64,000 bases of DNA, taken from contig NC_091152.1 of the NCBI RefSeq assembly GCF_040958095.1, positions 20,282,744 to 20,346,743 on the forward strand, in the 5' to 3' direction. The notes under the pieces were generated by a model. The model was not told the origin of the DNA, did no database searches, and saw only the letters and a program-made list of their open reading frames with translations. This stretch comes from Procambarus clarkii (lineage: Eukaryota > Arthropoda > Malacostraca > Decapoda > Cambaridae). Below are positions 6,360-59,361 of the stretch, in pieces. The translations under genes were made by a program, and so were the position numbers. Positions within the stretch are counted from its first letter, which is position 1. Each line of letters opens with the position of its first letter.

Positions 6360-7910
6360 GCATTCTGTAAAGTACTTTATTTCCAAGTAAATGAAGTCTA
6401 GATAATGATCTGGCACTTTCCTTATACATTTGTAACAAAGGTAATTTATAGAGGAGCTCAAGGCACTTAAACTAAAAATTTAATAATTAAAAATTTAAGA
6501 AACCAGCACACAAGACCAAGTAACTTGCTCTACCAATAAAGTCAACTTAATTCTTGTTCCCTTTCAATAATGGCAAAACTTTCAAATTCTAAACATTTCA
6601 CATTAGTCTGCCTAGTAGATGACCACTCACTAGAGATTTGCACATTTACTCTATATTCACAAGTCTAGCCGACGTATTTCAATAAGTACAATATCTACCA
6701 GCATCGACTACAGAAGACTAGAATTAAGTAGTCTTCCATCATACTTTGAAAAGGTATTTGATGTTTTACTTAAATCTAAGACAGTTTTAGTGAAGCACTT
6801 ACAGGTCTGCTGGCTACATGCCAGCCGTCAATGCTATAGACTATGATGTTTACATTCTAAATCAATTTATATCTACACTATACCAGCCAGCAATGTGTAG
6901 CAATTACAAAAATACATCTTACAATGCTTTCTAAACCATGACATTACCACAATAAATACATTGTCTTCTCACAAGGAACCCTGGAAACAATATAGAGGAT
7001 AATTATGTCTAATCAAGACCTTAGAGCAGGAATCTACTAGTTCCTTCATGTGACCCGACAGGGTTTGTGAATTACATTGTACCGTGCGGCAGGAGCGTAT
7101 GCTAGACTATAGTGCACTTAAAAATTGGTTATTTCCAAATAGTTGTTTTACCAATTACATTTTTAAAAAACTACAAGTTAGTAAAATACATGATAGCAAG
7201 AGAAATTTGAGCGGACTCTACAATTACACAATGTAATGTATTTTTCTAGGAACATCATTGCTGAATTTAAAATATGAACGTTATTGCTGTATTTAAAATA
7301 TGAACACAGTCTAACCACTGTATGCCTCTTGTTCATGTATTTGGGCAAGATGTATACATCCCCAAATACCATATTAATGAACACTAAAGATACTCAAGAT
7401 GCTAATTTAAAAAGACCTGTGGAAGAGGCACGAGTTATAGCTTAACTTCTTCCTCCACACCTTAGGCTAGAAAAGGCTTTTTACTCTAAACTGCCCATTT
7501 GTCCACATACTTCCCTATTGCCCCAGTGACATTACACTTAAACCCTTAACGTGCTAAGGAGGGAGAGGTTAAATGTTAAAATTAAAAATCTGAATCCTAC
7601 TTTGGGTTCACTTTACAATAAAATACCAATAAAATGTTAAGCACGAGCTCAATTAAAATCATGTCAATTAGTCTTATTGGAGATCCTACTAGGTTTGAAA
7701 GTTTTGATAACTAACTATGACGTCTAGCCATTTTTCAAAATCTTTCTTCTGAGCCCAATCATGTGTTTATACCAAGTTCCTTTCTCCAAACCAACAAAGA
7801 AAATCTGTTTTGACAGGCATCACGTTCTCCAATGCCACAGACTTGGTAAGTTTTGTCCATCTGAAGTTCTTGCAGCATCAAGTTCTCCCACAAACGGACA
7901 GTGTTACACG
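6360..7910 (-). other. Gene copy 1: candidate terminal exon and 3' untranslated region
   Basis: A splice acceptor (gtttcag) ends just before 7910 on the minus strand, and the sequence then runs AT-rich to a polyadenylation signal at 6376-6381. I see no convincing donor within it, so it may be one terminal exon of about 1.5 kb. A 49-codon open frame begins within the first bases (with WENLMLQELQ) in copies 1-4, but copy 5 has an early stop there, and the ORF upstream has already ended. I therefore read it as untranslated. Confidence 0.4.
6376..6381 (-). terminator. Polyadenylation signal AATAAA, gene copy 1
   Basis: AATAAA on the minus strand sits in a block conserved in copies 1-4 (aagtactttattt on the plus strand), and copy 5 also has AATAAA at the corresponding place. 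A LINE relic begins within about 35 bases downstream. Confidence 0.6.
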
Positions 7911-8016
7911 CTGAAACATTATAGTAATGGTTTATTTAAATGACTACAAAACATTTAAATATTAAGTTCCTTTGTTAAAAAAGTAGTGTATATAGTCGAC
8001 CCGGGAACCACCGATT

Positions 8017-8393
8017 CAACCCGTTATCGCACTTGCATGTAGTCTATTTGGCTTATTCATAAGTGCATGCAAGACTAATTTATGATATTTGGTTTACCTT
8101 TAAATTCTGAGTAGAAAATATTGATCGAACCTAACCTTAGTATGTTAAGATTACAGTTAGCACTGAACATATACTTATATTGATATTACAGCTTTTTAGA
8201 AATAGCTAAACTAAAATATTTAAATCTATTTTAAAGCAATTCATGATATTGTCAAATTTTGTACAAAATCTATTGTTTTATTAAACAGGAAGACTTTGCA
8301 TCTAAAATATGGCTTTGAATAAGTCACATATATACTTATTTATAAGCCAAATAGTGATTAAGCAACAAGTCATATGTGCCGTCTAGTGGGTCG
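8017..8393. mobile_element. Fossil foldback (MITE-like) element in the 3' intron of gene copy 1
   Basis: The left end starts CAACCCGTT and the right end finishes GGGTCG, a decayed inverted repeat. The inner sequence, with ctaaccttagtatgttaaga, matches the intact element at 51526-51896. Flanking 7-mers ACCGATT and ACTGGTT look like a decayed 7-bp target duplication. The corresponding place in copy 5 (about 50485-50515) is an uninterrupted empty site. Confidence 0.65.
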
Positions 8394-8679
8394 ACTGGTT
8401 ACCCCATATATATTTAAGAAAAAATTGCAATTACGAGTAAATCATATACAGGCCAGTCATATATATAAAGTATTTGTTCAGAAAATTAGAATAAGCCTCC
8501 CCTTTATTATGAAAATATCAGGGGGCCCCAACAAGAAATTTATAGCCTAGTGGACTGAAGTTACTGTTACAAAAGTTTTCCCCAAAAAAGAAGCTACAGC
8601 CAAAATAGCCAAGACAAAATGCTTCACCACAACGTGATATTTAATCTAGTTTGAAACAGTTGCCACCAAGAATACTTAC

Positions 8680-8810
8680 AAGTCTCAAGAACCGATGGCA
8701 GGTACTTGGCCGTCTATTATACCAGCATTTTCCAGTGAATTTATCTAGCACATCTGATACATCGCTATTGAAGCTTTTCTTTGGCAATTCATTGCTCAGG
8801 CGAAACAAAA
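8680..8810 (-). other. Gene copy 1: candidate 131-bp exon after the stop codon
   Basis: It is bounded by a polypyrimidine-CACCAG acceptor at 8811 and a GTAAGT donor at 8679. One frame is open in copies 1-4 (FRLSNELPKKSF...), but in copy 5 a one-base insertion leaves stops in all three frames. It is probably an untranslated exon, or part of an alternative transcript. Confidence 0.45.
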
Positions 8811-9236
8811 CTGGTGAAAAAAAAAAATAAGTGGAGAAACTTATAGAAAAAACATTTGTGCAGAATCTAGTTCCCACCCTCCCCCTGAATACAAGAAAGA
8901 AACCATATTCTTCAAATCTTGGCAAAGCCACTATTTCTATTTAAAATATGCTAGGCATCTAAACCCTAAAAAAATTAAAAAGTTACTTAACAAAAGGCTC
9001 TACTACTTGGCCCAAGTCAATTTTTCTTCATACAATATTGTAACTTATGCCTTTAGTTAGCAACCATTTCTAATTGGATAGGAAAATTGGTTACGAACTT
9101 TTTAACTTCCAAAAATTGAAAGTTCACTGTATAATATCTTACCTTTTTTATGCACGTCAGTAGTCAAGAATTTTTAGCCACAGGAAGAACACCGTTTATT
9201 CCATCTAGCATAGTTCATTTTCTTGGGCTGTGGCCT

Positions 9237-11632
9237 CTAATCATCTACACTAGAATCTGAATACTCTAGTAGTGGAGGACTTGGCAATGGCACTGGTCCT
9301 CCAATGAGCAACAGAGTCACGAAGAGGAGGCGTGAGCGCCAATGCCAATGCTGACTGGACAACGAGTCACTGGTTTGTGAAGGTGGAGTTATATCCATTA
9401 ATGGCTCTTGTGGTGTAGCTGCTTGCTCAGGCACGACAGGAGCCCGAGCCTCATCATTGACGAATAAAACGTTCCTAGCAGAATATTGTCTCATAATTAT
9501 CTCTACATAATAATCTATTATTTGTAAAGGTGTAAAGGATTGAGAGGCACTGCTCTGAATGCTATTATCTGGAAAGAAATCCCCCAAACCTGGTGCCAAG
9601 CCAGGCCCGGCGGCGGGTCGCTCCCGGCTCTCAGGCCTGGCGGCGTGCCGCTTCCGGCTCCCAGGCCTGGCGGCACTCGGGTGCCTAGCAGGAGAATCCA
9701 CCATGCCGGGTGTCAAGGGAGCACAGGGGTACCGATTTGCGACCACAGGACCAGTCATGTGCCGCTCCCTGCCCAGAGACCCAGTGGCATCCCCAGCCAG
9801 ACGCCCGGCGGCGTCCCCATCCTCTGCCAAAGGCTCGGCGGTGTGCCGCTCCCGGCTCCCAGGCCTGGCGGCACTCGGGTGCCTAACAGGAGAATCCACC
9901 ATGCCAGGTGTCAAGGGAGCACAGGGGTACCGATCTGCGACCACAGGACCAGTCATGTGCCGCTCCCTAATGCGAGGCCCGGCGGAGTGCCGCTCCCTGC
10001 CCAGAGACCCAGTGGCATCCCCAGCCAGATGTCCGGCAGCATTCCCATCCTCTTCCAGAGGCCCGGCGGTGTGCGGCTCCCGGCTCCCAGGCCTGGCGGC
10101 ACTCGGGTGCCTAACAGGAGAACAATCCACCACGCTGGAAGTCAAGGGAGCACAGGGGTACCGATCTGCGACTACAGGACCGGTCATGTGCCGCTCCCTG
10201 CCCCGAGACCCAGCGGCATCCCCGGCCAGAGGCCCGGAGGCGTCCCCGTCCCCGGCCAGAGGCCCAGCGGCGTCCCCATCCTCTGCCAGAGGAACGGCGG
10301 CGTCCCCATCCTCTGCCAGAGGAACGGCGGCGTCCCCATCCTCTGCCAGAGGCCCAGCAGCGTCCCCGGCCGCAGGCACGGCAGCAACAGTCGGGCACCG
10401 AACTCGTCGCTTACGACCACGCTTGCGTCTATTTGACTTTCCAGGCTTCGTTGACACAGTCGAGAGAGTTTCCTCCCGCTTTTGCAAGGCAGCTGGGTTA
10501 TCCGCCTTTGCATGTTTCTTAATCTTTGCGAGTAGTCCAGGGGCCCCGGCGCCAGCCTCCCCAGGTCCAGGGGCCCCGGCGCCAGCCTCCCCAGGTCCAG
10601 GGGCCCCGGCGCCAGCCTCCCCAGGTCCAGGGGCCCCGGCGCCAGCCTCCCCAGGTCCAGGGGCCCCGGCGCCAGCCTCCCCAGGTCCAGGGGCCCCGGC
10701 GCCACCACCAGAGGCACCAGTGGCCCCAGCACCACCACCAGAGGCACCAGTGGCCCCAGCACCACCACCAGAGGCACCAGTGGCCCCAGCACCACCACCA
10801 GAGGCACCAGTGGCCCCAGCACCACAGGCACCAGTGGCCCCAGCACCACCACCAGAGGCACCAGTGGCCCCAGCACCACCACCAGAGGCACCAGTGGCCC
10901 CAGCACCACCACCAGAGGCACCAGTGGCCCCAGCACCACCACCAGAGGCACCAGTGGCCCCAGCACCACCACCAGAGGCACCAGTGGCCCCAGCACCACC
11001 ACCAGAGGCACCAGCACCAGAGGCCCCAGCACCACCAGAGGCACCAGTGGCCCCAGTAGAGGCACCAGTGGCACCAGCACCGGAGGCCTCAGCATCTAAC
11101 AGCAGATTAGTACTCGTGTTCTGTCCAGGAACCAAACTATCGCGCACTTCAACGTACGCGTCTTCGTCAGCATCATTCCAGTCGTCAGGGTCGAGGCCTG
11201 AAACGGACTCCAGCCAACACCTAGACGCGTCGTTCCGAGACGACATCGATTCTGCATCCTGCCAAACCTGGATATCGTTTTTCCAGGTGTTAAGTAGTTC
11301 ACTTGGGGACTCGTAGCGTGTCTCCAAGCCACTTTCCATCATATCTCTGTAATCGCAATTATCTGCACGATGCATTGCATTCAAGTTATTCTTTGTAGGT
11401 TCATCTTCAATTTTATTAGTTTGTGTCAGTAAGCAATTTCCTAAAATATTTCCTTCCATTCGTGTCTTTTCAAGACTTATGCCTTTAATACTTTTAAAAC
11501 CTTCCATGGTTTGGAGTAGCTGCCCTGGTTCTAACAATCCTATGGACTCCTCGAAGTTAAATAACTTTTGTCTCTTAAATTCATTTTGTAGTTTACTGTC
11601 CAAGCATCCACGAATACCCGTGAAGGATGATT
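9237..11632 (-). CDS. Repeat-rich protein of unknown family, tandem copy 1 (main exon)
   Basis: This is the main coding exon, entered through the acceptor atcttgcag|AA at 11633. Joined in phase to exon 1 (ATG at 12044, donor at 12020) it gives 806 residues. Residues about 9-125 are unique sequence. About 127-192 form an acidic module with IQVWQDAESM and GLDPDDW. Then come a Gly/Ala array of 10-residue units, six GAPGPGEAGA units, a basic cluster (NRRKRGRKRR), a short GPLAEDGDAA array and three longer units with RERHMTGPVV and DRYPCAPLT. Near the end a hydrophobic stretch (LLFVTLLLIGG) precedes an acidic tail. No signal peptide or known domain is evident. Type-A markers ILGN and EPTKNN are shared with copy 3. 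The exon continues as untranslated sequence to a GTAAGA donor at 9142. I do not recognise the function. Confidence 0.7.
10220..10370 (-). repeat. Acidic 30-bp coding repeat, copy 1 (about 5 units)
   Basis: Units of 30 bp encode GPLAEDGDAA-type decapeptides on the minus strand. It is the shortest version of an array that has about 13-15 units in copies 2, 3 and 4. Confidence 0.8.
10540..11090 (-). repeat. Gly/Ala-rich 30-bp coding repeats, copy 1
   Basis: Two adjacent arrays with a 30-bp period. At about 10540-10700 are six near-identical units encoding GAPGPGEAGA. At about 10700-11090 are about twelve units encoding GATGASGGGA, some shortened by multiples of three bases. Confidence 0.85.
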
Positions 11633-12019: not shown

Positions 12020-12300
12020 CATTACGAAGGACTAAAATACACATGTTAAAATAGGATTCCAACGGTTGCTGGAGAATAAAAGCCCAAGGATGAGCGAGGG
12101 ACAGAGAGCTCCAACAAGTGTCTCCACTGTACTCTCGGGAAGAAGTGTACAGACCAACGCTGACCACCAGCGAGGACAACAATTAAAGTAAGCGGTAAAT
12201 AAACTGTGTGATGATCTGCGTCACGTGGCCACTTTCTGGTTTTGCCCTCAATCAATAGATGGCGCTGTCGACGGACCTGTCACCACAGTCAAATCAGAAG
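12020..12300 (-). promoter_or_regulatory. Gene copy 1: first exon and promoter with E-box
   Basis: Exon 1 ends at a GTAAGT donor after 12020. Its last 25 bases, from ATG at 12044, encode MCILVLRN and join in phase to the main exon. The ATG-donor block is kept in all five copies, with GTGAGT in copy 5. Upstream, a palindromic CACGTG E-box followed by TGACGC-type sequence (CACGTG at 12222-12227) is conserved in all five. The exact transcription start is not visible. Confidence 0.55.
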
Positions 12301-16185: not shown

Positions 16186-16189
16186 AAAC

Positions 16190-17733
16190 AAGCATTCTGT
16201 AAAGTACTTTATTTCGAAGTACATAAAGTAAATAAATGTTCTGGCACTTGTACATTTGTAACAAAGGTAATTTTTAGAGCAGCTCAAGGCACTCTTAAAC
16301 TAAAAATTTAAAAGACCAGCGTACAAGATCAAACAATTTGCTCTACCAATAAAGTAGACTATAAATTCTTGTTCCATTTCAGTATTGGCACAACTCTCAA
16401 TTTCTACTAAACATTTCACATTAGTCTGCCTAGTAGATGACCACTCACTAGAGATTTGCACATTTACTCTATATTCACAAGTTTAGCCGACGTATTTCAA
16501 TAAGTACAATATCTACCAGCATCGACCATAGAAGACTAGAATTAAGTAGTCTTCCATCATACTTTGAAAAGGTATTTGATGTTTTACTTTAATCTAACGC
16601 AAAGAATTTTAGTGAAGCACTTACAGGTCTGCTGGCTACATGCCGGCCGTCAATGCTATAGACTATGATGTTTACATTCTAAATCAATTTATATCTACAC
16701 TATACCAGCCAGCAATGTGTAGCAATTACAAAAGTACATTTTACAATGCTTTCTAAACCATGACTAACATGACATCACAAATACATTGTCTGCTCACAAG
16801 GAACCCTGGAAACCATGTAGAGAATAATTATGTCTGATTAAGACCTTAGAGCAGGAATCTACTAGTTCCTTTATGTGACCCGACAGGGTTGTGAATCACA
16901 TTGTACCGTGCTGCAGGAAGCGCATGCTAGACTATAGTGCACTTAAAAACCTTGTTATATCCGAATAATTCAGTATTTTTAAAGGTAATTGGTAAAACAA
17001 GTTACTAAAATACATGATAGCAAGAGAAATTTGAGCGGACTAAAATTACACAATGTAATGTATTTTTTCTAGGAACAGCATTGCTGTATTTAAAATATGA
17101 AGGTTATTGCTGTATTTAAAATATGAACAGTCGAACCACTGTCTTTCTCCTTCATGCATTTGGGCAAAATGTATAAACTCCCAAATGCCAGATAATGGAC
17201 ACTAAAGACACTCAAGATGCCAAATACAGTTAAAATGACCTGTGGAAGAGACGCGAGTTATAGTTTAAGTTCTTCCTCCACACCTTAGGCTAGAAAAGGC
17301 TTTTTAGCCTCTAAACTGCCCATTTGTCCACATACTTCCCTATTGCCCCAGTGACACATTACACTTAAACCCTTAAAGTGCTAAGGAGGGAGAGGTTAAC
17401 AAATGTTAAAATTAAAAATCTGAATCCTACTTTGGGTTCACTTTACAATAAAATACCAATAAAATGTCAAGCACGAGCTCTTAAAATCTTGTCGATTAGT
17501 CTTATTGGAGATCCTACTAGGTTTGAAAGTTTTGATAACTATGGCGTCTAGCCATTTTTCAAAATCTTTTTTCTGAGCCAATCATGTGTTTATACCAAGT
17601 TCCCTTCTCCAAACCAACAAAGAAAATCTGCCTTGACAGGCATCACGTTCTCCAATGCCACAGACTTGGTAAGTTTTGTCCATCTGAAGTTCTTGCAGCA
17701 TCAAGTTCTCCCACAAACGGCCAGTGTTACATG
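16190..17733 (-). other. Gene copy 2: candidate terminal exon and 3' untranslated region
   Basis: It has the same structure as 6360-7910, with an acceptor (gtttcag) just before 17733 and AT-rich sequence to the polyadenylation signal. No other gene is seen. Confidence 0.4.
16208..16213 (-). terminator. Polyadenylation signal AATAAA, gene copy 2
   Basis: AATAAA on the minus strand in the conserved 3'-end block, with a LINE relic directly downstream. Confidence 0.6.
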
Positions 17734-18507: not shown

Positions 18508-18629
18508 AAGTCTCAAGAACCGATGGCAGGTACTTGGCCGTTTATTATACCAGTAATTTCCAGTAAATTTATCTGGAACATCACTATTGAAGCTTTTCTT
18601 TGGCAATTCATTGCTCAGGCGAAACAAAA
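18508..18629 (-). other. Gene copy 2: candidate exon after the stop codon
   Basis: Acceptor CACCAG and donor GTAAGT are kept. It is shorter than copy 1's exon, with a net loss of 9 bases in the middle (FNSDVPDK in place of FNSDVSDVLDK). Confidence 0.4.
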
Positions 18630-19052
18630 CTGGTGAAAAAAAAAAATAAGTGGAGAAACTTATAGAAAAAACATTTGTGCAGAATCTAGTTCCCACCCTC
18701 CCCCTGAATACAAGAAAGAAACCATATTCTTCATATCTTGGCAAAGCCACTATTTCTATTTAAAATATGCTAGGCATCTAAACCCTAAAAAAATTAAAAA
18801 GTTACTTTACAAAAGGCTCCACTACTTGGCCCAAGTCAATTTTTCTTCATACAATATTGTAACTTATGCCTTTAGTTAGCAACCATTTCTAATTGGATAA
18901 GAAAACTGGTTACAAACTTTTTAACTTCCAATAATTGAAAGTTCACTGTATAATCTTACCTTTTTTATGCACTTCAGCAGTTAAGAACTTTAGCCACAGG
19001 AAGATCACCGTTTATTCCATCTAGCATAGTTCATTTTCTTGGGCTGTGGCCT

Positions 19053-22003
19053 CTAATCATCTACACTAGAATCTGAATACTCTAGTAGTGGAGGACTTGG
19101 CAATGGTACTGGTCCTCCAATGAGCAACAGAGTCACGAAGAGGAGGCGTGAGCGCCAATGCCAATGCTGACTGGACAACGAGTCACTGGTTTGTGAAGGT
19201 GGAGTTCTATCCATTAATGGCTCTTGTGGTGTAGACGCTTGCTCAGGCACGACAGGAGCCCGAGCCTCATCATTGAATAAAATGTTCCTAGCAGAAGATT
19301 GTCTCATAATTATCTCTACATAATAATCTATTATTTGTAAAGGTGTAAAGGATTGAGAGGCACTGCTCTGAGTGCTGTTACCTGGAGAGAAATCCCCCAA
19401 ACCTGGTGCCAGGCCAGGCCCGGCAGCGGGTCGCTCCCGGCTCTCAGGCCTGGCGGCGTGCCGCTTCCGGCTCCCAGGCCTGGCGGCACTCTGGTGCCTA
19501 ACAGGAGAATCCACCACGCCGGGTGTCAAGGGGGCACAGGGGTACCGATCTGCGACTACAGGACCGGTCATATGCCGCTCCCTAATGTCAGGCCCAGCGG
19601 CGTGCCGCTCCCGGCCCAGAGACCCAGTGGCATCCCCAACCAGAGGCCCGGCGGCGTCCCCATCATCTGCCAAAGGCTCTGCGGTGTGCCGCTCCCGGCT
19701 CCCAGGCCCGGCGGCGTCCCCATCCTCTGCCAAAGGCTCGGCGGTGTGCCGCTTCCGGCTCCCAGGCCTGGCGGCACTCTGGTGCCTAACAGGAGAATCC
19801 ACCACGCCGGGTGTCAAGGGAGCACAGGGGTACCGATCTGCAACCACAGGACCAGTCATGTGCCGCTCCCGTATGCGAGGCCCAGCGGCGTGCCGCTCCC
19901 GACACCCAGTGGCATCCCCGGCTAGAGGCTCGGCGGCGTCCCCATCCTCAGCCAGAGGCCCGGCGGCGTCCCCATCCTCGGCCAGAGGCCCGGCGGCGTC
20001 CCCATCCTCGGCCAGAGGCCCGGCGGCGTCCCCATCCTCGGCCAGAGGCCCGGCGGTGTCCCCATCCTCGGCCAGAGGCCCGGCGGTGTCCCCATCCTCG
20101 GCCAGAGGCCCGGCGGTGTCCCCATCCTCGGCCAGAGGCCCGGCGGTGTCCCCATCCTCGGCCAGAGGCCCGGCGGTGTCCCCATCCTCGGCCAGAGGCC
20201 CGGCGGTGTCCCCATCCTCGGCCAGAGGCCCGGCGGTGTCCCCATCCTCGGCCAGAGGCCCGGCGGTGTCCCCATCCTCGGCCAGAGGCCCGGCGGTGTC
20301 CCCATCCTCGGCCAGAGGCCCGGCGGTGTCCCCATCCTCGGCCAGAGGCCTGGCAGCGTGCCGCTTCCGGCTCCCAGGCCCGGCAGCACTCGGGTGCCTA
20401 ACAGGAGAACAATCTACCACGCTGGTAGTCAAGGGAGCACAGGGGTACCGATCTGCAACCACAGGACCAGTCATGTGCCGCTCCCTGATGCGAGGCCCGG
20501 CGGTGTGCCGCTCCCTGCCCAGAGACCCAGTGGCATCCCCGGCTAGACGCCCGGCGGCGTCCCCATCCTCGGCCAGAGGCCCGGCGGCGTCCCCATCATC
20601 TGCCAAAGGCCTGGCGGCGTGCCGCTTCCGGCTCGCTGGCCTGGCAACACTCGGGTGACTAACAGGAGAACAATCCACCACGCCGGTTGTCAAGGGAGCA
20701 CAGGGGTACCGATCTGCGACTACAGGACCAGTCATATGCGGCTCCCTGCCCCGTGACCCAGCGGCATCCCCGGCCAGAAGCCCGGCGGCGTGCCGCTCCC
20801 GAGACCCAGTGGCATCCCCGGCCAGAGGCCCGGCGGCGTCCCCATCCTCTGCCAGAGGCCCAGCAGCGTCCCCGGCCGCAGGCGCGGCAGCAACAGTCGG
20901 GCGCCGAACTCGTCGCTTACGACCACGCTTGCGTCTATCAGACTTTCCAGGCTTCGTTGACACAGTCGAGAGAGTTTCCTCCCGCTTTTGCAAGGCAGCT
21001 GGGTTATCCGCCTTTGCATGTTTCTTATTCTTTGCGAGTACTCCAGGGGCCCCGGCACCAGCCTCCCCAGGTCCAGGGGCCCCGGCGCCAGCCTCCCCAG
21101 GTCCAGGGGCCCCGGCATCGCCCCCCGAAGTTCCAGAATCCCCAGTACCACCACCGGAGGCCCCAGCACCAGTGGCCCCAGCACCAGAGGCACCAGAGGC
21201 ACCAGCAGCACCAGAGGCACCAGTGTCCCCAGCACCACCAGAGGCACCAGTGTCCCCAGCACCACCAGAGGCACCAGTGTCCCCAGCACCAGAGGCACCA
21301 GTGGCCCCAGCACCACCAGAGGCACCAGCACCGGAGGCACCAGCACCGGAGGCCTCAGCACCAGAGGCCCCAGCACCACCAGAGGCCCCAGCACCACCAG
21401 AGGCACCAGTGGCCCCAGCACCACAGGCACCAGAGGCCCCAGCACCGGAGGCCTCAGCATCTAACAGCTGATTAGTGCTCGTGTTCTGTCCAGGAACCAA
21501 ATTATCACGCACTTCAACTTCACCGTACGCGTCTTCGTCAGCATCATGCCAGTCGTCAGGGTCGAGGCCTGAAACGGACTCCAGCCAACACCTAGACGCG
21601 TCGTTCCGAGACGACATCGATTCTGCATCCTGCCAAACCTGGATATCGTTTTTCCAGGTGTTAAGTAGTTCACTTGGGTACGCGTAGCGTGTCTCCAGGC
21701 CACTTTCCATCATATCTCTGTAGTCGCAATTATCTGCACGATGGACTGCATTCAAGTTATTCTTTGTAGATTCATCTTCAATTTTATTAGTTTGTGTCAG
21801 TAAGCAATTTTCTAAAATGTTTCCTTCCATTCTTGTCTTTTCAAGACTTATGCCTTTAATACTTTTAAAACCTTCCATGGTTTGGAGTAGCTGCCCTGGT
21901 TCTAACAATCCTATGGACTCTTCGAAGTTAAATAACTTTTGTCTCTTAAATACATTTTGTAGTCTACTGTCCAAGCGTCCACGAATACCCGTCAAGGGTG
22001 ATT
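19053..22003 (-). CDS. Repeat-rich protein of unknown family, tandem copy 2 (main exon)
   Basis: The main exon is entered by an acceptor at 22004 (cttgcag). With exon 1 (ATG at 22414, donor at 22390) it encodes 991 residues in one intact frame. The layout is as in copy 1, with three differences. The Gly/Ala array is irregular and only partly periodic. The acidic array (GPLAEDGDTA) is expanded to about 15 units. The RERHMTGPVV/DRYPCAPLT unit occurs four to five times, separated by PLAEDGDAAG stretches. The hydrophobic segment LLFVTLLLIGG and tail EYSDSSVDD are identical to copy 1. Type-B markers ILEN and ESTKNN are shared with copy 4. Untranslated exon sequence continues to a GTAAGA donor at 18959. 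Function unknown. Confidence 0.7.
19925..20355 (-). repeat. Acidic 30-bp coding repeat, copy 2 (about 15 units)
   Basis: Near-identical 30-bp units encode GPLAEDGDTA and, at one end, GPLAEDGDAA. The homogeneity points to recent expansion. Confidence 0.9.
21050..21460 (-). repeat. Gly/Ala-rich coding repeats, copy 2 (degenerate)
   Basis: Two GAPGPGEAGA units are followed by an irregular GASGGAGA/GDTGAS array. It is less regular than in copies 1, 4 and 5, but length changes remain multiples of three. Confidence 0.8.
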
Positions 22004-22389: not shown

Positions 22390-22670
22390 CATTACGAAGG
22401 ACTAAAATACACATCTTAAAATAGGATTCCAACGGTTGCTGGAGAATAAAAGGCCTAAGGATGAGCGAGGGGCAGAGAGCTCCAACAAGTGTCTCCACTG
22501 TACTCTCGGGAAGAAGTGTACAGACCAACGCTGACCACCAGCGAGGACAACAATTAAAGTAAGCGGTAAAGAAACTGTGTGATGATCTGCGTCACGTGGC
22601 CACTTTCTGTTTTTGCCCTCAATCAATAGATGGCGCTGTCGATGGACCTGTCACCACAGTCAAATTAGAA
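22390..22670 (-). promoter_or_regulatory. Gene copy 2: first exon and promoter with E-box
   Basis: ATG at 22414 and the donor after 22390 give MCILVLRN. CACGTG lies at 22593-22598. The alternative ATG (22208) and its donor (22202) are present, but the upstream acceptor of that small exon is CCTCGG, without AG. Confidence 0.55.
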
Positions 22671-30053: not shown

Positions 30054-30175
30054 AAGTCTCAAGAACCGATGGCAGGTACTTGGCCGTCTATTATACCAGC
30101 ATTTTCCAGTGAATTTATCTAGCACATCGCTATTAAAGCTTTTCTTTGGCAATTCATTGCTCAGGCGAAACAAAA
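30054..30175 (-). other. Gene copy 3: candidate exon after the stop codon
   Basis: CACCAG acceptor and GTAAGT donor are intact. The length is 122 bp, through loss of 9 bases compared with copy 1. Confidence 0.4.
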
Positions 30176-31189
30176 CTGGTGAAAAAAAAAAAAAATAAGT
30201 GGAGAAACTTATAGAAAAAACATTTGTGCAGAATCTAGTTCCCTCCCTCCCCCTGAATACAAGAAAGAAACCATATTCTTCAAATCTTGGCAAAGCCACT
30301 ATTTCTATTTAAAATATGCTAGGCATCTAAACCCTAAAAAAATTAAAAAGTTACTTTACAAAAGGCTCTACTACTTGGCCCAAGTCAATTTTTCTTCATA
30401 CAATATTGTAACTTATGCCTTTAGTTAGCAACCATTTCTAATTGGATAGGAAAATTGGTTACAAACTTTTTAACTTCCAATAATTGAAAGTTCACTGTAT
30501 AATATCTTACCTATTTTATGCACTTCAGTAGTCAAGAATTTTTAGCCACAGGAAGAACACCGTTTATTCCATCTAGCATAGTTCATTTTCTTGGGCTGTG
30601 GCCTCTAATCATCTACACTAGAATCTGAATACTCTAGTAGTGGAGGACTTGGCAATGGCACTGGTCCTCCAATGAGCAACAGAGTCACGAAGAGGAGGCG
30701 TGAGCGCCAATGCCAATGCTGACTGGACAACGAGTCACTGGTTTGTGAAGGTGGAGTTCTATCCATTAATGGCTCTTGTGGTGTAGCTGCTTGCTCAGGC
30801 ACGACAGGAGCCCGAGCCTCATCATTGACGAATAAAACGTTCCTAGCAGAATATTGTCTCATAATTATCTCTACATAATAATCTATTATTTGTAAAGGTG
30901 TAAAGGATTGAGAGGCACTGCTCTGAATGCTGTTATCTGGAGAGAAATCCCCCAAACCTGGTGCCAAGCCAGGGCCGGCGGCGGGTCGCTCCCGGCTCTC
31001 AGGCCTGGCGGCGTGCCGCTTCCGGCTCCCAGGCCTGGCGGCACTCGGGTGCCTAGCAGGAGAATCCACCATGCCGGGTGTCAAAGGAGCACAGGGGTAC
31101 CGATCTGCGACCACAGGACCAGTCATGTGCCGCTCCCTAATGCGAGGCCCAGCGGTGTGCCGCTCCCTGCCCCGAGACCCAGTGGCATC

Positions 31190-40174: not shown

Positions 40175-40305
40175 AAGTCTCAAGAACTTATGGCAGGTAC
40201 TTGGCCGTTTATTATACCAGCAATTTCCAGCATATTTATCTAGCACATCTGGTACATCACTATTGAAGCTTTTCTTCGGCAATTCATTGCTCAGGCGAAA
40301 CGAAA
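40175..40305 (-). other. Gene copy 4: candidate 131-bp exon after the stop codon
   Basis: CACCAG acceptor and GTAAGT donor as in copy 1. The length is the same as in copy 1. Confidence 0.4.
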
Positions 40306-40725
40306 CTGGTGAAAAAAAAAAAGTAGAGAAATTTGTAGAAAAAACATTTGTGCAGAATCTAGTTCCCTCCCTCCCCCTGAATACAAGAAAGACACCATAT
40401 TCTTCAAATCTTGGCAAAGCCACTATTTCTATTTAAAATGTGATATGCATCTAAACCCTAAAAAAATTAAAAAGTTACTTTACAAAAGGCTCTACTACTT
40501 GGCCCAAGTCAATTTTTCTTCATACAATATTTTAACTTATGCCTTTAGTTAGCAACTATTTCTAATTTGATAAGAAAATTGGTTACAAACTTAAGCTTCC
40601 AATAATTGAAAGCTCACTGTATAATATCTTACCTTTTTTATGCACTTCAGCAGTTAAGAACTTTAGCCACAGGAAGATCACCGTTTATTCCATCTAGCAT
40701 AGTTCATTTTCTTGGGCTGTGGCCT

Positions 40726-43700: not shown

Positions 43701-43970
43701 CTGCACGATGCATTGCATTCAAGTTATTCTTTGTAGATTCATCTTCAATTTTATTAGTTTGTGTCAGTAAGCAATTTTCTAAAATATTTCCTTCCATTCG
43801 TGTCTTTTCAAGACTTATGCCTTTAATACTTTTAAAACCTTCCATGGTTTGGAGTAGCTGCCCTGGTTCTAACAATCCTATGGACTCTTCCAAGTTAAAT
43901 AACTTTTGTCTCCTTAATACATTTTGTAGTCTACTGTCCAAGCATCCACGAATACCCGTCAAGGATGATT
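40726..43970 (-). CDS. Repeat-rich protein of unknown family, tandem copy 4 (main exon)
   Basis: The exon is entered at acceptor 43971. With exon 1 (ATG at 44380, donor after 44356) it encodes 1089 residues in one intact frame. It has the longest regular Gly/Ala array among copies 1-4 (about twenty GATGASGGGA-type units) and an acidic array of about 13 GPLAEDGDAA units. Several longer RERHMTGPVV/DRYPCAPLT units follow, alternating with a GSRERYTAEPLAEDGD motif. The basic cluster, the hydrophobic LLFVTLLLIGG and the EYSDSSVDD tail are as in copies 1-3. The acidic module has one difference (NGDQVWQD in place of NDIQVWQD). Type-B markers ILEN and ESTKNN. Exon sequence continues to a GTAAGA donor at 40632. 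Function unknown. Confidence 0.7.
41885..42290 (-). repeat. Acidic 30-bp coding repeat, copy 4 (about 13 units)
   Basis: Almost perfect 30-bp units encoding GPLAEDGDAA. One unit differs (ALPLAEDGDA). Confidence 0.9.
42800..43425 (-). repeat. Gly/Ala-rich 30-bp coding repeat, copy 4 (about 20 units)
   Basis: Regular units encode GATGASGGGA, with variants GAFGGGA and short deletions in multiples of three bases. Confidence 0.9.
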
Positions 43971-44355: not shown

Positions 44356-44640
44356 CATTACGAAGGACTAAAATACACATGTTAAAATAGGATTCCAACG
44401 GTTGCTGGAGAATAAAAGGCCTAAGGATGAGCGAGGGGCAGAGAGCTCCAACAAGTGTCTCCACTGTACTCTCGGGAAGAAGTGTACAGACCAACGCTGA
44501 CCACCAGCGAGGACAACAATTAAAGTAAGCGGTAAAGAAACTGTGTGATGATCTGCGTCACGTGGCCACTTTCTGTTTTTGCTCGCAATCAATAGATGGC
44601 GCTGTCGACGGACCTGTCGCCACAGTCAAATTAGAAGCTT
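44356..44640 (-). promoter_or_regulatory. Gene copy 4: first exon and promoter with E-box
   Basis: ATG at 44380, donor after 44356 (MCILVLRN) and CACGTG at 44559-44564. Confidence 0.55.
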
Positions 44641-47609: not shown

Positions 47610-49234
47610 ACAAAAATCACTTTTAACCAACTTTATTGCCATGTGTGGGAAAGTCCAGATAATGTTCTGGCACTTTCCCTATACATTTGTGTCGAAGGTG
47701 ATTGGTGGAGCAGCTCAAGGTGCTCATGTGTAACAAATTTTTTAAAACTGAATAATGTAAATTCATAAAAAAACAGCATATATCAAATAATTTTCTCTAC
47801 CAATAAAGTAAACTAAAAAATCTTGTTCCGTTTCAATAATGGCACAACTTCCAAAGTTAACCAAACATTTCACATTAGTTTACCTAGTAAATGAACATTT
47901 ACAGATTTGCACAGTTACTCTATATTCACTGTCAAGTCCAGCCAACACGTTGGAATATTCTTAAGTACAGTATACCAGCATCGACCACAGAGGACTAATA
48001 AGTCGTTTTCCCTGTCATACTCTGAACAAATTTTACGTTTTACTTTAATCTAGACAGTTTATTTTAGTGAAGCACTTACAGGCCTGCTGGCTACATGCCA
48101 GCCGTCTGTGCTACAGACAGCCTATGATGTTTACATTCTAAACAATTTATATCTACATTATGTCAGCCAGTAAGGTGTAGCAATTTCAAAAGTACCTCTT
48201 ATAATGCTTTCTACACCATGACATTAACATGATAATCAGTGCAAGAAACACGGTCTGTTCACAAGTAACCCTGGAAACCATGTAGAGGATAATTATGTCT
48301 GATAAACACATTAGAGTAGGAATCTACTAGTTCCTTAATGTAAACTGTCAGGATTTTGCATCACGTTGTACCGTGTGGCAGGAAGCGTATATTAGTTAAT
48401 AGGGGCGACTAAAAAGACTGGTTAGATGCAAATAATTTAGTTAAAAAGGTATTTGATAACTTAAAACAAGTGAATTTAAAATACATGACGGCAATGTAAA
48501 AATTTTAGCTGTCACTAATATGTCGCAATTAGTTTTTAAGGTATAGCATGGCCGAATTTAAAATATGAACGTTGCAAGTACAGAATAAGTATCCGTAATG
48601 CCCACTTACATGCCAATTTATACAGTGGAGTCTGTGTATGCCTCTTTCATGGATTTGGGTAAAATGTCAGACCACACGAATGCCAGATTAATGAATACGA
48701 AAGATGTAGGTCTAAATAAAATTTAAATGAACATTTGTGAGCTAGGCAAAAGTTTGTTTCGACTTCTTCCCAAAGTCTTAGGCTAGAAAAGTGGTTCAAT
48801 TCAATCTAAACTGCTCCGTGAATTATCGAAGTACTTTCCTAATAGCCTACCGCGCTAACATTTTTTTTAAACTTCAATAAGGGCGAGGTTAAAAAAAATT
48901 AAAAAATCTAAATCCTACTTTGGATTCACTTTACAATAAAATTCTAGTAAAATATTCTGCACGAGCTCAATTAAAATAGTTTTCTATTCGATATGTTCTC
49001 TTATTTGAGATCTTGCAACAAAGTTTGAAACAGTTTGGCAACTGTTTACAATGGTGTCTAGCTCTCAAAACCTCTCATGGGCCAGTTGTGTTAATATCTA
49101 GTTCCCTTCTCCAAAGGAACAATCACAAAATCTCTTGACAGGCATCACGTTCTTCAGCACCACAGACTTGGTAAACCTTGTGTCTCTGGAGGTCTCGCAG
49201 CATCTGGTTCACCACAAACGGCCAGTGTTACACG
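47610..49234 (-). other. Gene copy 5: candidate terminal exon and 3' untranslated region
   Basis: Diverged but alignable with the other copies, for example over the gccagccgtc...tatgatgtttacattctaa block. The acceptor (gtttcag) is just before 49234. The short open frame seen here in copies 1-4 is interrupted early. Confidence 0.4.
47632..47637 (-). terminator. Polyadenylation signal AATAAA, gene copy 5
   Basis: AATAAA on the minus strand at the place corresponding to the other copies. No LINE relic follows. Confidence 0.5.
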
Positions 49235-53167: not shown

Positions 53168-53261
53168 AACAAGAATCTAGAGCCAAAATACTGAAGACCA
53201 AGAATTGTTTCGCCACAAGTTGGTATTTAGTCTAGTTAGAAACAGTCAAGAATATACTTAC

Positions 53262-53388
53262 AAAAGTCTCAAGAACTGATGGCAGGTACCGTGCCGTCTA
53301 TTACACCGGCAATTTCCAGTGAAATTATCTAGCACATCACTATTGAAGCTTTTGTAGTCTTAATTCATTGCTCAGGCGAAATACAGAA
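53262..53388 (-). other. Gene copy 5: candidate exon after the stop codon
   Basis: The TTTTCAG acceptor and GTAAGT donor are conserved, but a one-base insertion and substitutions leave stop codons in all three frames. It cannot be coding in this copy. Confidence 0.4.
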
Positions 53389-53399
53389 CTGAAAATGTA

Positions 53400-53815: not shown

Positions 53816-54224
53816 AAATCCAGTTACCTCATTAATACAAGAATCATTATGCTTCAAATCCCGGCAAAGCCAATATTTCCACTTAAAATACAGTAGGCAA
53901 TTTAAAGTCACTGGTAAATTTAAAAAAAATGACACTGAAACAACCATCTAGCCTAACATGATTCATTCGATTCGCAAATTTACAAAATATTGTAATTTGT
54001 GTGCCCTAGTTTTTAAGTGGATAAGCTACTGTGTGTAAAGTAAAATCTTGACAAACTTCGTGACCATCAATAATTTAAGTGTCACTAAAGTATCTTACCT
54101 TTCTCTTGCATCAGTCTGTTTTAAAATCTTGTTTTAGCCACAGTAAGATTCCACCTAGCATCGACTTCATTATGTCGGGCTGTAGCCTCTTCAGTCTGAA
54201 CTAGAAGAATCCGATTCTTTATCT

Positions 54225-57200
54225 TTAGTTACTAGAGTCAGAAACCTTATCTGAACTAGAAGAGCCACAATCTTTATCCATACTAGAGGAATAAGATTCT
54301 TTATCTGTACTAGACGAGTAAGTATCTTCATCTAAACTTAAGTTCGCGTCTTCTCGGGGAGTATTGTCCAAGTAGAACGCTGCTGTAGTAAACAACAGAC
54401 ACAAGACTACGAGCCGTGCGTTTTCACGATTTTCCCGAATCGTAGCCTCGTCAATGAAGGACGTCCCTTCCATTTCAGCCGCACGATCTCTACGAACTTT
54501 CTCAATAAATGAATCTATTATTTCTCGAGACGTATAGGACCGTGGGACACCGCTCTGCCAGCGAGAAACATCCGCAGCGCTTATGTTGTGCATACAGGCG
54601 TCCCGAGGCCTGGCAGCACCAGGCCGGTGCCGAAGTCTTGTGTTACGACCAGGCTTGCGAATGTAAGTCTTTGCAGGCTTCCTTAACACAGTTGAAAGCT
54701 TTTCTTCCCGCCTTCGCAATGCAGCCGTGTTAACCGTTTTCTTTATACGTCGTGGAGCCCTTGCAGAGCTCCTGGCACCGCCACCGCCGGCCCCAGCACC
54801 GCGGCTGGACGTCCCAGCACCCCTCCGAGTCCTAGTACTGCTAGGAGAGGCTCCAGCACCGCCAGTACTGCGCCCAGAAGCCCCAGGACTGCGCCCAGAA
54901 GCCCCAGGACTGCGCCCAGAGCCCTTAGCACTCCCAGGACTGCGCCCAGAGGCCCTAGGACCACCAGTACTGTGCCCGGAGACCCCAGTACTAGGCCCAG
55001 AGGTCCTAACACCCCCAGAAGCCCCAGTACTGCGCCCAGAGGCCCCATCACCCCCAGTACTGAGCCCCGAGGTCCTAGCACACCCAGAACTGTGCCCAGA
55101 AGCCTCAGTACTGCGCCCAGAGGCCCCAGCACCGAGCCCGGAGGTCCTAGCACACCCAGTACTGCGCCCAGAGTCCCCAGTACTGCGCCCAGAGCCCTTA
55201 CCACCCCCAGGACTGCGACTGCGCCCAGAGCCCTTAGAGCCCCCAGGACTGCGACTGTGCCCAGAGCCCTTAGCATCCCCAGGACTGCGCCCAGAGCCCT
55301 TAGCACCCCCAGGACTGCGCCCAGAGCCCTTAGCACCCCCATGACTGCGCCCAGAGCCCTTAGCACCCCCAGGACTGCGACTGTGCCCAGAGCCCTTAGC
55401 ATCCCCATGACTGCGCCCAGAGCCCCCAGGACTGCGACTGTGCCCAGAGCCCTTAGCATCCCCAGGACTGCGCCCAGAGCCCCCAGGACTGCGACTGTGC
55501 CCAGAGCCCTTAGCATCCCCAGGACTGCGCCCAGAGCCCTTAGCACCCCCAGGACTGCGCCCAGAGCCCTTAGCACCCCCATGACTGCGCCCAGAGCCCT
55601 TAGCACCCCCAGGACTGCGCCCAGAGCCCTTAGCACCCCCAGGACTGCGACTGCGCCCAGAGCCCCCAGGACTGCGCCCAGAGCCCTTAGAGCCCCCAGG
55701 ACTGCGCCCAGAGCCCTTAGAGCCCCCAGGACTGCGACCAGAGCCCTTAGCATCCCCAGGACTGCGCCCAGAGCCCTTAGCACCCCCATGACTGCGCCCA
55801 GAGCCCTTAGAGCCCTCAGGACTGCGACTGCGCCCAGAGCCCTTAGAGCCCCCAGGACTGCGACTGTGCCCAGAGCCCTTAGCATCCCCAGGACTGCGCC
55901 CAGAGCCCTTAGCACCCCCAGGACTGCGCCCAGAGCCCTTAGCACCCCCATGACTGCGCCCAGAGCCCTTAGCACCCCCAGGACTGCGACTGCGCCCAGA
56001 GTCCTTAGAGCCCCCAGGACTGCGACTGTGCCCAGAGCCCTTAGCATCCCCATGACTGCGCCCAGAGCCCCCAGGACTGCGACTGTGCCCAGAGCCCTTA
56101 GCATCCCCAGGACTGCGCCCAGAGCCCCCAGGACTGCGACTGTGCCCAGAGCCCTTAGCATCCCCAGGACTGCGCCCAGAGCCCTTAGCACCCCCAGGAC
56201 TGCGCCCAGAGCCCTTAGCACCCCCATGACTGCGCCCAGAGCCCTTAGCACCCCCAGGACTGCGACTGCGCCCAGAGTCCTTAGAGCCCCCAGGACTGCG
56301 ACTGTGCCCAGAGCCCTTAGCATCCCCATGACTGCGCCCAGAGCCCCCAGGACTGCGACTGTGCCCAGAGCCCTTAGCATCCCCAGGACTGCGCCCAGAG
56401 CCCCCAGGACTGCGACTGTGCCCAGAGCCCTTAGCATCCCCAGGACTGCGCCCAGAGCCCTTAGCACCCCCAGGACTGCGCCCAGAGCCCTTAGCACCCC
56501 CATGACTGCGCCCAGAGCCCTTAGCACCCCCAGGACTGCGCCCAGAGCCCTTAGCACCCCCAGGACTGCGCCCAGAGCCCTTAGCACCCCCAGGACTGCG
56601 ACTGCGCCCAGAGCCCCCAGGACTGCGCCCAGAGCCCTTAGAGCCCCCAGGACTGCGACTGTGCCCAGAGCCCTTAGAGCCCCCAGGACTGCGACCAGAG
56701 CCCTTAGCATCCCCAGGACTGCGCCCAGAGCCCTTAGCACCCCCATGACTGCGCCCAGAGCCCTTAGAGCCCCCAGGACTGCGACTGTGCCCAGAGCCCT
56801 TAGCATCCCCATGACTGCGCCCAGAGCCCCCAGGACTGCGACTGTGCCCAGAGCCCTTAGCATCCCCAGGACTGCGCCCAGAGCCCTTAGCACCCCCAGG
56901 ACTGCGCCCAGAGCCCTTAGCACCCCCATGACTGCGCCCAGAGCCCTTAGCACCCCCAGGACTGCGCCCAGAGCCCTTAGCACCCCCAGGACTGCGACTG
57001 CGCCCAGAGCCCCCAGGACTGCGCCCAGAGCCCTTAGCATCCCCAGGACTGCGCCCAGAGCCCTTAGCACCCCCATGACTGCGCCTAGAGCCCTTAGCAC
57101 CCCCATGACTGAGCCCAGAGCCCTTAGCACCCCCAGGACTGCGCCCAGAGCCCTTAGCACCCCCAGGACTGCGACCAGAGCCCCCAGGACTGCGACCAGA

Positions 57201-58660
57201 GCCCTTAGAGCCCTCAGGACTGCGCTCAGTGGCCCCAGCACTGCGTCCGGAGGCCCCAGCATCCCCAGCACTGCGCTCAGTGGCCCCAGCACCCCCAGTA
57301 CTGCGCTCAGTGGCCCCAGTACTGCGCTCAGTGGCCCCAGTACTGCGCTCAGTGGCCCCAGTACTGCGCTCAGTGGCCCCAGTACTGCGCTCAGTGGCCC
57401 CAGTACTGCGCTCAGTGGCCCCAGTACTGCGCTCAGTGGCCCCAGCACTGCGTCCGGACGTCCCAGCACCCCCAGCACCGCCACCGGAGGCCCCAGCACT
57501 GCGTCCGGAGGCCCCAGCATCCCCAGTACTGCGCTCAGTGGCCCCAGCACCCCCAGTACTGCGCTCAGTGGCCCCAGCACCGCCACCAGAGGCCCCAGCA
57601 CCACCACCAGAGGCACCAGTGGCCCCAGCACCACCACCAGAGGCACCAGTGGCCCCAGCACCACCACCAGAGGCACCAGTGGCCCCAGCACCACCACCAG
57701 AGGCACCAGTGGCCCCAGCACCACCGCCAGAGGCACCAGTGGCCCCAGCACCACCGCCAGAGGCACCAGTGGCCCCAGCACCACCGCCAGAGGCACCAGT
57801 GGCCCCAGCACCACCACCAGAGGCACCAGTTGCCCCAGCACCGCCACCAGAGGCACCAGTGGCCCCAGCACCGCCACCAGAGGCACCAGTGGCCCCAGCA
57901 CCGCCACCAGAGGCACCAGTGGCCCCAGCACCGCCACCAGAGGCACCAGTGGCCCCAGCACCGCCACCAGAGGCACCAGTGGCCCCAGCACCGCCACCAG
58001 AGGCACCAGCACCAGTGGCACCAGCACCGGAGGCCTCAGCATCTAACAGCACATTAGTGCTCGTGTTCTGTCCAGGAACCAAACTATCACGCACTTCAAC
58101 TTTACCGTACGCGTCTTCGTCAGCATCATGCCAGTCGTCAGGGTCGAGGCCTGAAACGGACTCCAGCCAACACCTAGACGCGTCGTTCCGAGACGACATC
58201 GATTCTGCATCCTGCCAAACCTGGATATCGTTTTTCCAGGTTTTGTCAAATACTGGCTCACTCTGGCACTCGTATCGTCTCTCTCGCCCATTTCCTACCA
58301 TATCCTTGAGGTCACCATCTTGGTGACCTGGTAAAGTATTTGTGTAAGCATAAGAGCTTGCTAAACACTCATATTTTGAGCAATTATCTGTAGGATTAAT
58401 TTTTTTCAAGTTATTCTTGGTCGTGAGACGGCCATTTACACCAAATTGCGTCCGTAGGCAATGGTCCGAAATATTCCCGTCTTTTACTTCATGTTCAAGA
58501 CTAATAAATCCTAAAATACTATTTTTAAAATCTTTCCTAGCTTCGAGTAGCAGTCCTGGTTCAGACAATCTCAGACACTCTTGGAAGCTTAATAGCGTTC
58601 GTCTTTTCAAATCATTTTGTACTTCACTTCCCAGACGTCCACGAATACCCGTCAAGGATT
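54225..58660 (-). CDS. Repeat-rich protein of unknown family, tandem copy 5 (main exon, diverged)
   Basis: The exon is entered at acceptor 58661 (attttacag). With exon 1 (ATG at 59037, donor after 59013, MCILVLQN) it encodes 1486 residues in one intact frame. The first 140 residues or so are clearly related to copies 1-4 but diverged (TGIRGRLGSE, TKNNLKKI). Then IQVWQDAESM to LLDAEASGAG is almost identical to them, as is the following GATGASGGGA array. After that the repeats are unlike the other copies. There is an ATERSTG array, then about 2 kb of 10-residue units such as GAKGSGRSPG, rich in Ser, Arg, Lys and Gly. The basic tail segment (RRIKKTVNTAALRRREE) is the diverged counterpart of the copy 1-4 basic cluster. 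The C-terminus has a hydrophobic stretch (VVLCLLFTTAAFYL) and a Ser/Asp-rich acidic tail. Function unknown. Confidence 0.7.
55190..57225 (-). repeat. Basic Ser/Arg/Gly-rich 30-bp coding array, copy 5
   Basis: About 2 kb of 30-bp units encode GAKGSGRSPG with variants SHGG, SPGD and HSRSPGGS. Shortened units differ by multiples of six or three bases. A 276-bp higher-order unit occurs twice in succession: the rare gagtcctta variant falls at about 56000 and 56276. Confidence 0.9.
57226..57590 (-). repeat. ATERSTG 21-bp coding array, copy 5
   Basis: Units of 21 bp encode ATERSTG, with interruptions such as GASGRSAG. Absent from copies 1-4. Confidence 0.8.
57591..58010 (-). repeat. Gly/Ala-rich 30-bp coding array, copy 5 (about 14 units)
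   Basis: Regular GATGASGGGA units, the same unit as in copies 1 and 4. Codon variants fall in blocks (caccacca versus caccgcca), which suggests local expansion. Confidence 0.9.
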
Positions 58661-59012
58661 CTGTAAAATAAAACCCATTACAGATTAGTTGCGATTTATA
58701 TGAATTTTAGAAAATTAAATTAGTGCCATTAGCCTTTTAACCCGATTGGGTCATCCATATCTAGCTTTGAGAATTATCCTACCAAATTAAATCTCACTCA
58801 CACCCCGCACTTAATCTATACCAACAATCCTCTTTAAATTAACAATTTTTCTTAGGCTACATGGAATAAATTATGGATTTAATTAATAATTTTTAGTGTA
58901 ATTACCAATATATTTTGACCGAGGAAAACCATCATTTGACAAGTAACCAACCATATGTAGGCCGAGGACTATTTAACCGAAGGATCTTGTATTAATATCC
59001 GCGTCAACTCAC

Positions 59013-59361
59013 CATTCTGAAGGACTAAAATACACATGTTAAAATAGGATTCCAACGGTTGCTGGAGAATAAAAGCCTAAGGATGAGCGAGGGGCAGAGA
59101 GCTCCAACAAGTGTCTCCACTGTACTCTCGGGAAGAAGTGTACAGACCAACGCTGACCACCAGCGAGGACAACAATTAAAGTAAGCGGTAAAGAAACTGT
59201 GTGATGATCTGCGTCACGTGGCCACTTTCTGTTTTTGCCCTCAATCAATAGATGGCGCTGTCGACGGACCTGTCACCACAGTCAAATTAGAAGCTTTATT
59301 CCTTAAATGGTTGTACATTTATAATTAAGAAAGTTTATATAATATTACAGTACATTAATTA
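59013..59361 (-). promoter_or_regulatory. Gene copy 5: first exon and promoter with E-box
   Basis: ATG at 59037 and donor GTGAGT after 59013. CACGTG at 59215-59220. From about 59025 to 59361 the sequence is almost identical to copies 1-4, in contrast to the diverged intron next to it. Homology stops abruptly at about 59361. Confidence 0.55.

Follow-up and report, generated by a model that had tools for sequence, protein, structure and literature searches.

The minus strand of a 64,000-nucleotide (nt) stretch of the Procambarus clarkii genome (RefSeq assembly GCF_040958095.1, contig NC_091152.1, positions 20,282,744 to 20,346,743; hereafter the window, with positions counted from its first letter) carries five related genes in tandem, spaced about 10-11.5 kb apart and each built around a giant exon filled with repeats. 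Judged from the sequence, these are probably real protein-coding genes of a fast-evolving tandem family that belongs to no recognised family, with a predicted C-terminal membrane anchor and with tracts that appear to have been spread between copies by gene conversion. As such, the most likely reading is that of a real gene family that is ordinary in kind, being tandem, repeat-rich and fast-evolving, with exchange between its copies.

Inspection of exons and splice signals in all five copies agrees with a first-pass annotation of this DNA, which had proposed five tandem minus-strand genes with a common exon layout and with common splice and polyadenylation signals. Specifically, four exons are predicted per gene: a 25-nt first coding exon, the giant exon 2 and two non-coding 3' exons (Table 1). 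The genes share the start ATG TGT ATT TTA GTC CTT ... AATG/GT and enter the giant exon in phase 1. The three predicted introns have a GT donor and an AG acceptor in 5/5 copies, despite the diverged surroundings in copy 5, and the AATAAA signal is likewise found in all five. The junction of 12020 to 11632 that had been proposed for copy 1 is consistent with this exon 1-exon 2 model, and start codons within intron 1 were rejected, the open frame above the acceptor being shortened in copy 4 and different in copy 5 (by eye). As had also been claimed, one frame is kept from ATG to stop in four of the five copies (1, 2, 4 and 5); copy 3 has a single frameshift at five consecutive Gs within its Gly/Ala array, past which the usual frame is open as far as the usual stop. 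The intact copies do have a length divisible by three once exon 1 is added, a point that carries little evidential weight because exon 1 is the same in all copies and the open reading frame (ORF) was chosen in frame.

The two predicted exons 3' of the stop are present in all five copies and were absent from the earlier account. Their donor, GTAAG, lies 93 or 94 nt past the stop in copies 1-4 and 126 nt past it in copy 5; exon 3 measures 131, 122, 122, 131 and 127 nt in copies 1 to 5, and the third-intron acceptor GTTTCAG, found in 5/5 copies, leads into a terminal exon of about 1.5-1.6 kb that ends near an AATAAAG signal. Both exons are read as 3' untranslated region (UTR) because many indels between copies 1-4 and copy 5 are not multiples of three. 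A coding role was rejected: each exon has an open stretch in copy 1, but the phases do not fit and copy 5 carries these out-of-frame indels. The third intron of copy 5, about 4 kb long, contains two open frames (50604-51419 and 52337-53176) that look reverse-transcriptase-like by eye, without a Pfam match for either. Joining exon 1 directly to exon 3, with exon 2 skipped, leaves an open frame of 49-52 codons in copies 1-4 and meets two stops in copy 5; this product was rejected as coding on account of the copy 5 stops and of a frame that was considered, by judgement alone, short enough for chance.

The first-pass annotation had taken the frame kept over long repeat exons as evidence for genes. 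The frame is indeed kept, but the openness of the arrays is weak coding evidence, because the repeat units are multiples of three and openness across the arrays extends to the other frames and to the antisense strand. The coding tests were for this reason moved to unique sequence. There, the seven distinct gap runs found in the N-terminal section of exon 2, in the Trp/Asp module and, for copies 1-4, in the C-terminal part all have a length divisible by three (3, 3, 3, 6, 6, 6 and 66 nt), as against 23 of 95 in the non-coding comparison set of intron 1, the stop-to-exon-4 stretch (copies 1-4) and the last exon (Fisher one-sided p = 1.1e-4). C-terminal indels of copy 5 were left uncounted because its alignment with copies 1-4 in that part was made on protein. 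When three unique segments were each subjected to 20,000 mononucleotide shuffles, the shuffled sequence was free of stops 0 times for the copy 5 N-terminus (148 codons), once for the copy 1 N-terminus (123 codons) and once for the last 170 codons of copy 5. Between copies 1-4 and copy 5, the N-terminal part has 0 stops in the coding frame and 2-29 in the five other frames. From these comparisons, together with the substitution ratios given below, we conclude that the frame is under selection while the amino acids are only weakly constrained.

The predicted proteins of copies 1-4 run, in order, through a unique N-terminus, the Trp/Asp module, a Gly/Ala array, a basic cluster, charged arrays, a predicted helix around SFTPLQIIDYYVEIIMRQ, a hydrophobic helix and an acidic tail. 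The domain order proposed earlier for all copies holds for these four and fails for copy 5, which retains the ends and the Trp/Asp module and carries 61 units of a basic SPGGAKGSGR array; no unit of the acidic PLAEDGDAAG array was found there when as many as 6 mismatches per 30 nt were allowed. Copies 1, 2 and 4 carry net charges of -22, -54 and -52, as against +123 in copy 5. In copy 1 the basic cluster, NRRKRGRKRRVR, is followed by a low-complexity linker of about 350 residues and then by the hydrophobic helix; copy 5 has a degraded cluster and a linker of only about 70 residues. The hydrophobic stretch itself reads LLFVTLLLIGGPVPL in copies 1, 2 and 4 and in the 3' part of copy 3, and LVVLCLLFTTAAFYL in copy 5, with a mean hydropathy of 2.25-2.43 over 15 residues and 1.43-1.48 over 19. 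A structure prediction for the copy 1 tail places helices at residues 28-46 and 83-103 (predicted local distance difference test, pLDDT, 54-74 by block, mean 55.5), the second of which spans the hydrophobic stretch with modest confidence; this prediction and that for the N-terminus were built on alignments of five sequences. Starts such as MCILVLRNES (copy 1) or MCILVLQNES (copy 5) show no evident signal peptide, as judged by eye with no dedicated predictor run. The likeliest working model is a single-pass protein with a putative C-terminal anchor and a long flexible cytosolic or nucleoplasmic part.

Several observations weigh against a constrained, membrane-anchored protein. The ratio of replacement to synonymous substitution rates (dN/dS) at the N-terminus of copies 1-4 compared with copy 5 is 0.59, 0.63, 0.67 and 0.69, with bootstrap ranges from 0.35-0.97 to 0.42-1.17; some wrong frames are equally low (0.63, 0.64), and the divergence of the N-terminus from copy 5 equals that of intron 1. 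Among copies 1-4 the ratio is 0.30-0.68 at the N-terminus and 0.6-2.1 at the C-terminus, the latter on 1-3 synonymous changes, while comparison with copy 5 gives 0.87-1.05 in the basic middle part and 0.74-0.82 in the poorly aligned C-terminus; over all comparisons that yielded a value, other than the N-terminus against copy 5, it spans 0.17-2.1. The repeat units give mixed signals, with observed/expected replacement of 0.32-0.48 for PLAEDGDAAG (excess synonymous change), 0.61-0.78 for Gly/Ala (weak) and 1.9-2.5 for SPGGAKGSGR (excess replacement), figures that compare units related by duplication and come without a significance test. One of the five copies is frameshifted, and in all five a predicted exon junction follows the stop at a distance of 93-126 nt, an arrangement that can invite nonsense-mediated decay in vertebrates, as the available text of a zebrafish study indicates (PMC7310861). 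On the protein side, the anchor is uncertain because a transmembrane helix would be expected to show a higher hydropathy over 19 residues, and the structure model of the N-terminus is uninformative (pLDDT 34.7).

Many of these points would suit a family that is transcribed and spliced and whose protein is of little importance, that is, a decaying or RNA-acting tandem family with arrays kept open by repeats of 3n length. Such a family would accommodate dN/dS values mostly near 0.6-1, the open alternative frames, the splice signals retained for 3' UTR exons, the placement of the stops and the frameshift of copy 3. It sits poorly with the finding that every indel in the unique coding sequence is in frame, as against 23 of 95 elsewhere, with stop-free unique segments and with four of five copies intact, and we consider it unlikely, if the most serious alternative to a protein-coding family.

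Divergence between the copies is strongly uneven. The last exon is 99.7% identical between copies 1 and 3, 96.1% between copies 2 and 4 and about 93% in the other pairs of copies 1-4, a pairing that fits duplication of a two-gene block and is less clear in other segments. Copy 5 is 69-75% alike to copies 1-4 in intron 1 (68.9-71.8%), the N-terminus (69.7-70.8%) and the last exon. In its promoter (286 nt compared), by contrast, it is 97.9-98.9% identical to copies 1-4, which are 96.8-98.3% identical among themselves; this near-identity starts abruptly near 59360 and fades just past the exon 1 donor. Constraint alone is a poor account of it, because among copies 1-4 the promoter barely exceeds its upstream flank (95.6-97.8%) in conservation. 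A second such tract covers the Trp/Asp module, where synonymous differences from copy 5 number 0 in copies 2 and 4, 1 in copy 3 and 2 in copy 1, and where the synonymous rate (dS) is 0-0.05 as against 0.46-0.54 at the N-terminus; this tract probably extends into shared Gly/Ala units (57584-58009). Copy 5 is thus a mosaic, with the promoter plus exon 1 and the Trp/Asp module at 97-99% identity to the other copies amid neighbouring sequence at about 70%, and was likely produced by recent gene conversion, as judged from the pattern of divergence rather than by a formal conversion test, and part of its likeness to the other copies would reflect recent exchange rather than shared constraint.

The tracts are far more alike than their neighbours, beyond what constraint would give, and in this the genes match tandem families under concerted evolution as these are generally understood, with head-to-tail copies, paired terminal exons and near-identical tracts amid diverged sequence. 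They differ in that the homogenised tracts of copy 5 are confined to the promoter with exon 1 and to one module, while the arrays differ in type and charge. The promoter tracts have in common a TATA-like box (-286 or -287), CACGTG and AGCGCCATCTA, the last of which may resemble the insect CTCF site. Each copy has one AGCGCCATCTA, giving five in the window where 0.05 would be expected, a count that is no independent enrichment because the five occurrences are copies of one another. The 99.7% identity of the copy 1 and copy 3 terminal exons, together with the frameshift in a G run in copy 3, might also come from an assembly artefact in which repeats were mis-assembled and the real copies are fewer; other aligned parts of copies 1-4 differ by about 1-12% and the arrays differ in unit counts, which makes such an artefact very improbable.

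The earlier statement that no known family is recognisable is borne out for the unique ends within Pfam, PHROGs, PDB and IMG/VR, which are collections of curated, prokaryotic, viral or solved-structure entries, a scope that includes neither the arrays nor animal proteomes. Six peptides drawn from the two unique ends had no Pfam family up to E = 1, and three unique-part peptides had no PHROGs match up to 0.1. Among PDB sequences there was none for the N-terminus and only chance-level matches for the C-terminus, namely an acyl carrier protein phosphodiesterase and an azoreductase (E 1.1). A query that had fused two frames not spliced to each other matched DHDDS and a receptor-endolysin-G protein fusion at E 0.28-0.79, which was likewise taken as chance. 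Two profile scans of IMG/VR viral contigs yielded no confirmed relative, and two exact patterns were without match. Scans of the window against Rfam (gathering threshold) and for tRNAs returned nothing. Among the literature matches listed, with subscription papers outside the scope, no title or abstract start describes such a family, and the one string match led to a plant RNA polymerase paper.

Known systems offer partial likenesses. Fibroin- and spidroin-like proteins share the tiny first coding exon, the giant repeat exon and changing unit numbers, but the genes described here have no evident signal peptide, carry arrays that are acidic or basic, and encode a hydrophobic helix near the C-terminus. 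Proteins of the EBNA1 type share a long Gly/Ala array and basic stretches; the present genes differ as animal genes with introns, other repeats and a hydrophobic helix, and no sequence relation is shown. A collagen-like protein was rejected, as the consensus unit GAGATGASGG has Gly at positions 1, 3, 6, 9 and 10 rather than at every third residue. Tail-anchored KASH proteins are alike in having a single hydrophobic segment near a short C-terminal tail, but the tails here end in SSVDD (copies 1-4) or VSDSSN (copy 5), lacking the PPPx ending that we take to be typical, and there is no Pfam KASH match in the unique parts.

A parallel in layout exists with the yeast Heh1/Heh2-type proteins (available text of PMC4695851), with which copies 1-4 share the order of basic cluster, low-complexity linker and single hydrophobic helix. 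If the cluster were a nuclear localisation signal (NLS) and the linker disordered, the protein might reach the inner nuclear membrane, where its acidic module could meet chromatin or import factors. The copy 1 arrangement would suit this, and the same text reports that Heh2 reporters need NLS and linker to accumulate at the inner nuclear membrane and that the two together suffice. Copy 5, with its short linker and degraded cluster, departs from the arrangement, and Pfam found no LEM, MAN or other domain in the unique parts; membership of the Heh2 type is not claimed for these reasons. The available text on LRRC59, a tail-anchored protein of the inner nuclear membrane whose arrival there is apparently diffusive and restricted by how large its cytoplasmic domain is (PMC6359192), also argues against it, since 800-1500 residues would hinder diffusion of that kind. 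A nuclear-envelope protein is, on balance, improbable.

Mobile elements are close neighbours of the array. A long interspersed nuclear element (LINE) at 3-5473 on the minus strand has two long ORFs, one at 3-3413 with endonuclease and reverse transcriptase, running off the end of the window, and a gag-like one at 3016-4689 in which cysteine knuckles were recognised by eye; the spacers near 13.7-16.2, 24.8-27.7 and 34.9-37.8 kb hold relatives that are 75-81% alike. When viral contigs were scanned with the protein of this LINE, no relative emerged. A 16-bp minisatellite (TAACACTGGAGACACA) at 59651-61273, with about 100 copies and open in three minus-strand frames, comes to within about 290 nt of the copy 5 promoter tract on its upstream side, and the promoters of copies 1-4 are preceded by a tandem repeat with a 36-bp period and about 4-5 units (12562-12741, 22933-23076, 33817-33952 and 44900-45042); none was listed upstream of copy 5 by Tandem Repeats Finder. 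Decapod genomes have very many satellite families (PMC10454600, available text), which would fit the setting here. The LINE sequence in three of the four spacers (copies 1-2, 2-3 and 3-4) and the period of about 10 kb could suggest that the genes belong to a mobile element or endogenous virus and were amplified along with it. Such an origin is highly implausible to us: the copies stand head to tail as duplicated blocks, each gene has three predicted introns and its own promoter, the unique parts have no PHROGs, Pfam or viral-contig match, and the reverse transcriptases belong to separate LINE sequences, although element termini were not systematically searched for.

Table 1 Predicted features of the five gene copies in the window (CDS, coding sequence)
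Feature	Position	Strand	Remarks
Copy 1 exon 1, coding part	12020..12044	-	phase-1 donor AATG/GTAAG
Copy 1 giant exon 2	9143..11632	-	stop at 9237, then 94 nt 3' UTR up to donor
Copy 1 CDS	12044-12020 + 11632-9237	-	2421 nt, 806 aa
Copy 1 predicted exon 3 (3' UTR)	8680..8810	-	131 nt
Copy 1 predicted terminal exon 4 (3' UTR)	6374..7910	-	down to AATAAA
Copy 2 exon 1, coding part	22390..22414	-	
Copy 2 giant exon 2	18960..22003	-	stop at 19053
Copy 2 CDS	22414-22390 + 22003-19053	-	2976 nt, 991 aa
Copy 2 predicted exon 3 (3' UTR)	18508..18629	-	
Copy 2 predicted terminal exon 4	16206..17733	-	
Copy 3 exon 1, coding part	33270..33294	-	
Copy 3 giant exon 2	30511..32881	-	G-run frameshift near 32240; stop at 30605
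Copy 3 CDS	33294-33270 + 32881-30605	-	2302 nt, not a multiple of 3; first stop is codon 270
Copy 3 predicted exon 3 (3' UTR)	30054..30175	-	
Copy 3 predicted terminal exon 4	27747..29283	-	
Copy 4 exon 1, coding part	44356..44380	-	
Copy 4 giant exon 2	40633..43970	-	stop at 40726
Copy 4 CDS	44380-44356 + 43970-40726	-	3270 nt, 1089 aa
Copy 4 predicted exon 3 (3' UTR)	40175..40305	-	
Copy 4 predicted terminal exon 4	37856..39412	-	
Copy 5 exon 1, coding part	59013..59037	-	
Copy 5 giant exon 2	54099..58660	-	stop at 54225; SPGGAKGSGR array, without acidic PLAEDGDAAG array
Copy 5 CDS	59037-59013 + 58660-54225	-	4461 nt, 1486 aa
Copy 5 predicted exon 3 (3' UTR)	53262..53388	-	
Copy 5 predicted terminal exon 4	47630..49234	-	preceding intron with reverse-transcriptase-like ORFs (by eye)
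Candidate gene conversion tract A, copy 5 promoter and exon 1	59013..59360	-	TATA-like box, AGCGCCATCTA, CACGTG
Candidate gene conversion tract B, copy 5 Trp/Asp module	58032..58230	-	near-identical to copies 1-4

The data are best explained by a model of a protein-coding family in which gene conversion would spread the promoter with exon 1 and the Trp/Asp tract, so that one promoter and one module are kept in all copies, while the remaining gene parts, away from the conversion tracts, would drift or adapt. The C-terminal hydrophobic helix, preceded by basic residues in copies 1-4, would anchor the protein in an intracellular membrane, with the N-terminus, the acidic Trp/Asp module and the low-complexity arrays facing the cytosol or nucleoplasm. 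The arrays, which vary in unit number and type with the frame kept in 4/5 copies, could then act as a flexible, length-variable brush that holds the Trp/Asp module away from the membrane. In a further and distinctly doubtful extension, one ancestral gene may have given rise to charge-opposed partners, acidic in copies 1, 2 and 4 and basic in copy 5. If co-expressed, anchored acidic and basic brushes might associate by charge into a condensate on an intracellular membrane, and conversion would match regulation and the docking module while the arrays diverge.

If expressed, the cluster would offer a natural and compact view of the evolution of repeat-filled genes, in which array type, charge and length shift while a promoter and a short module stay alike, apparently by exchange. 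In that case, which parts of low-complexity proteins selection sees would become directly testable. For genome annotation, these genes also call for caution, since giant repeat exons can be real genes rather than low-complexity noise.

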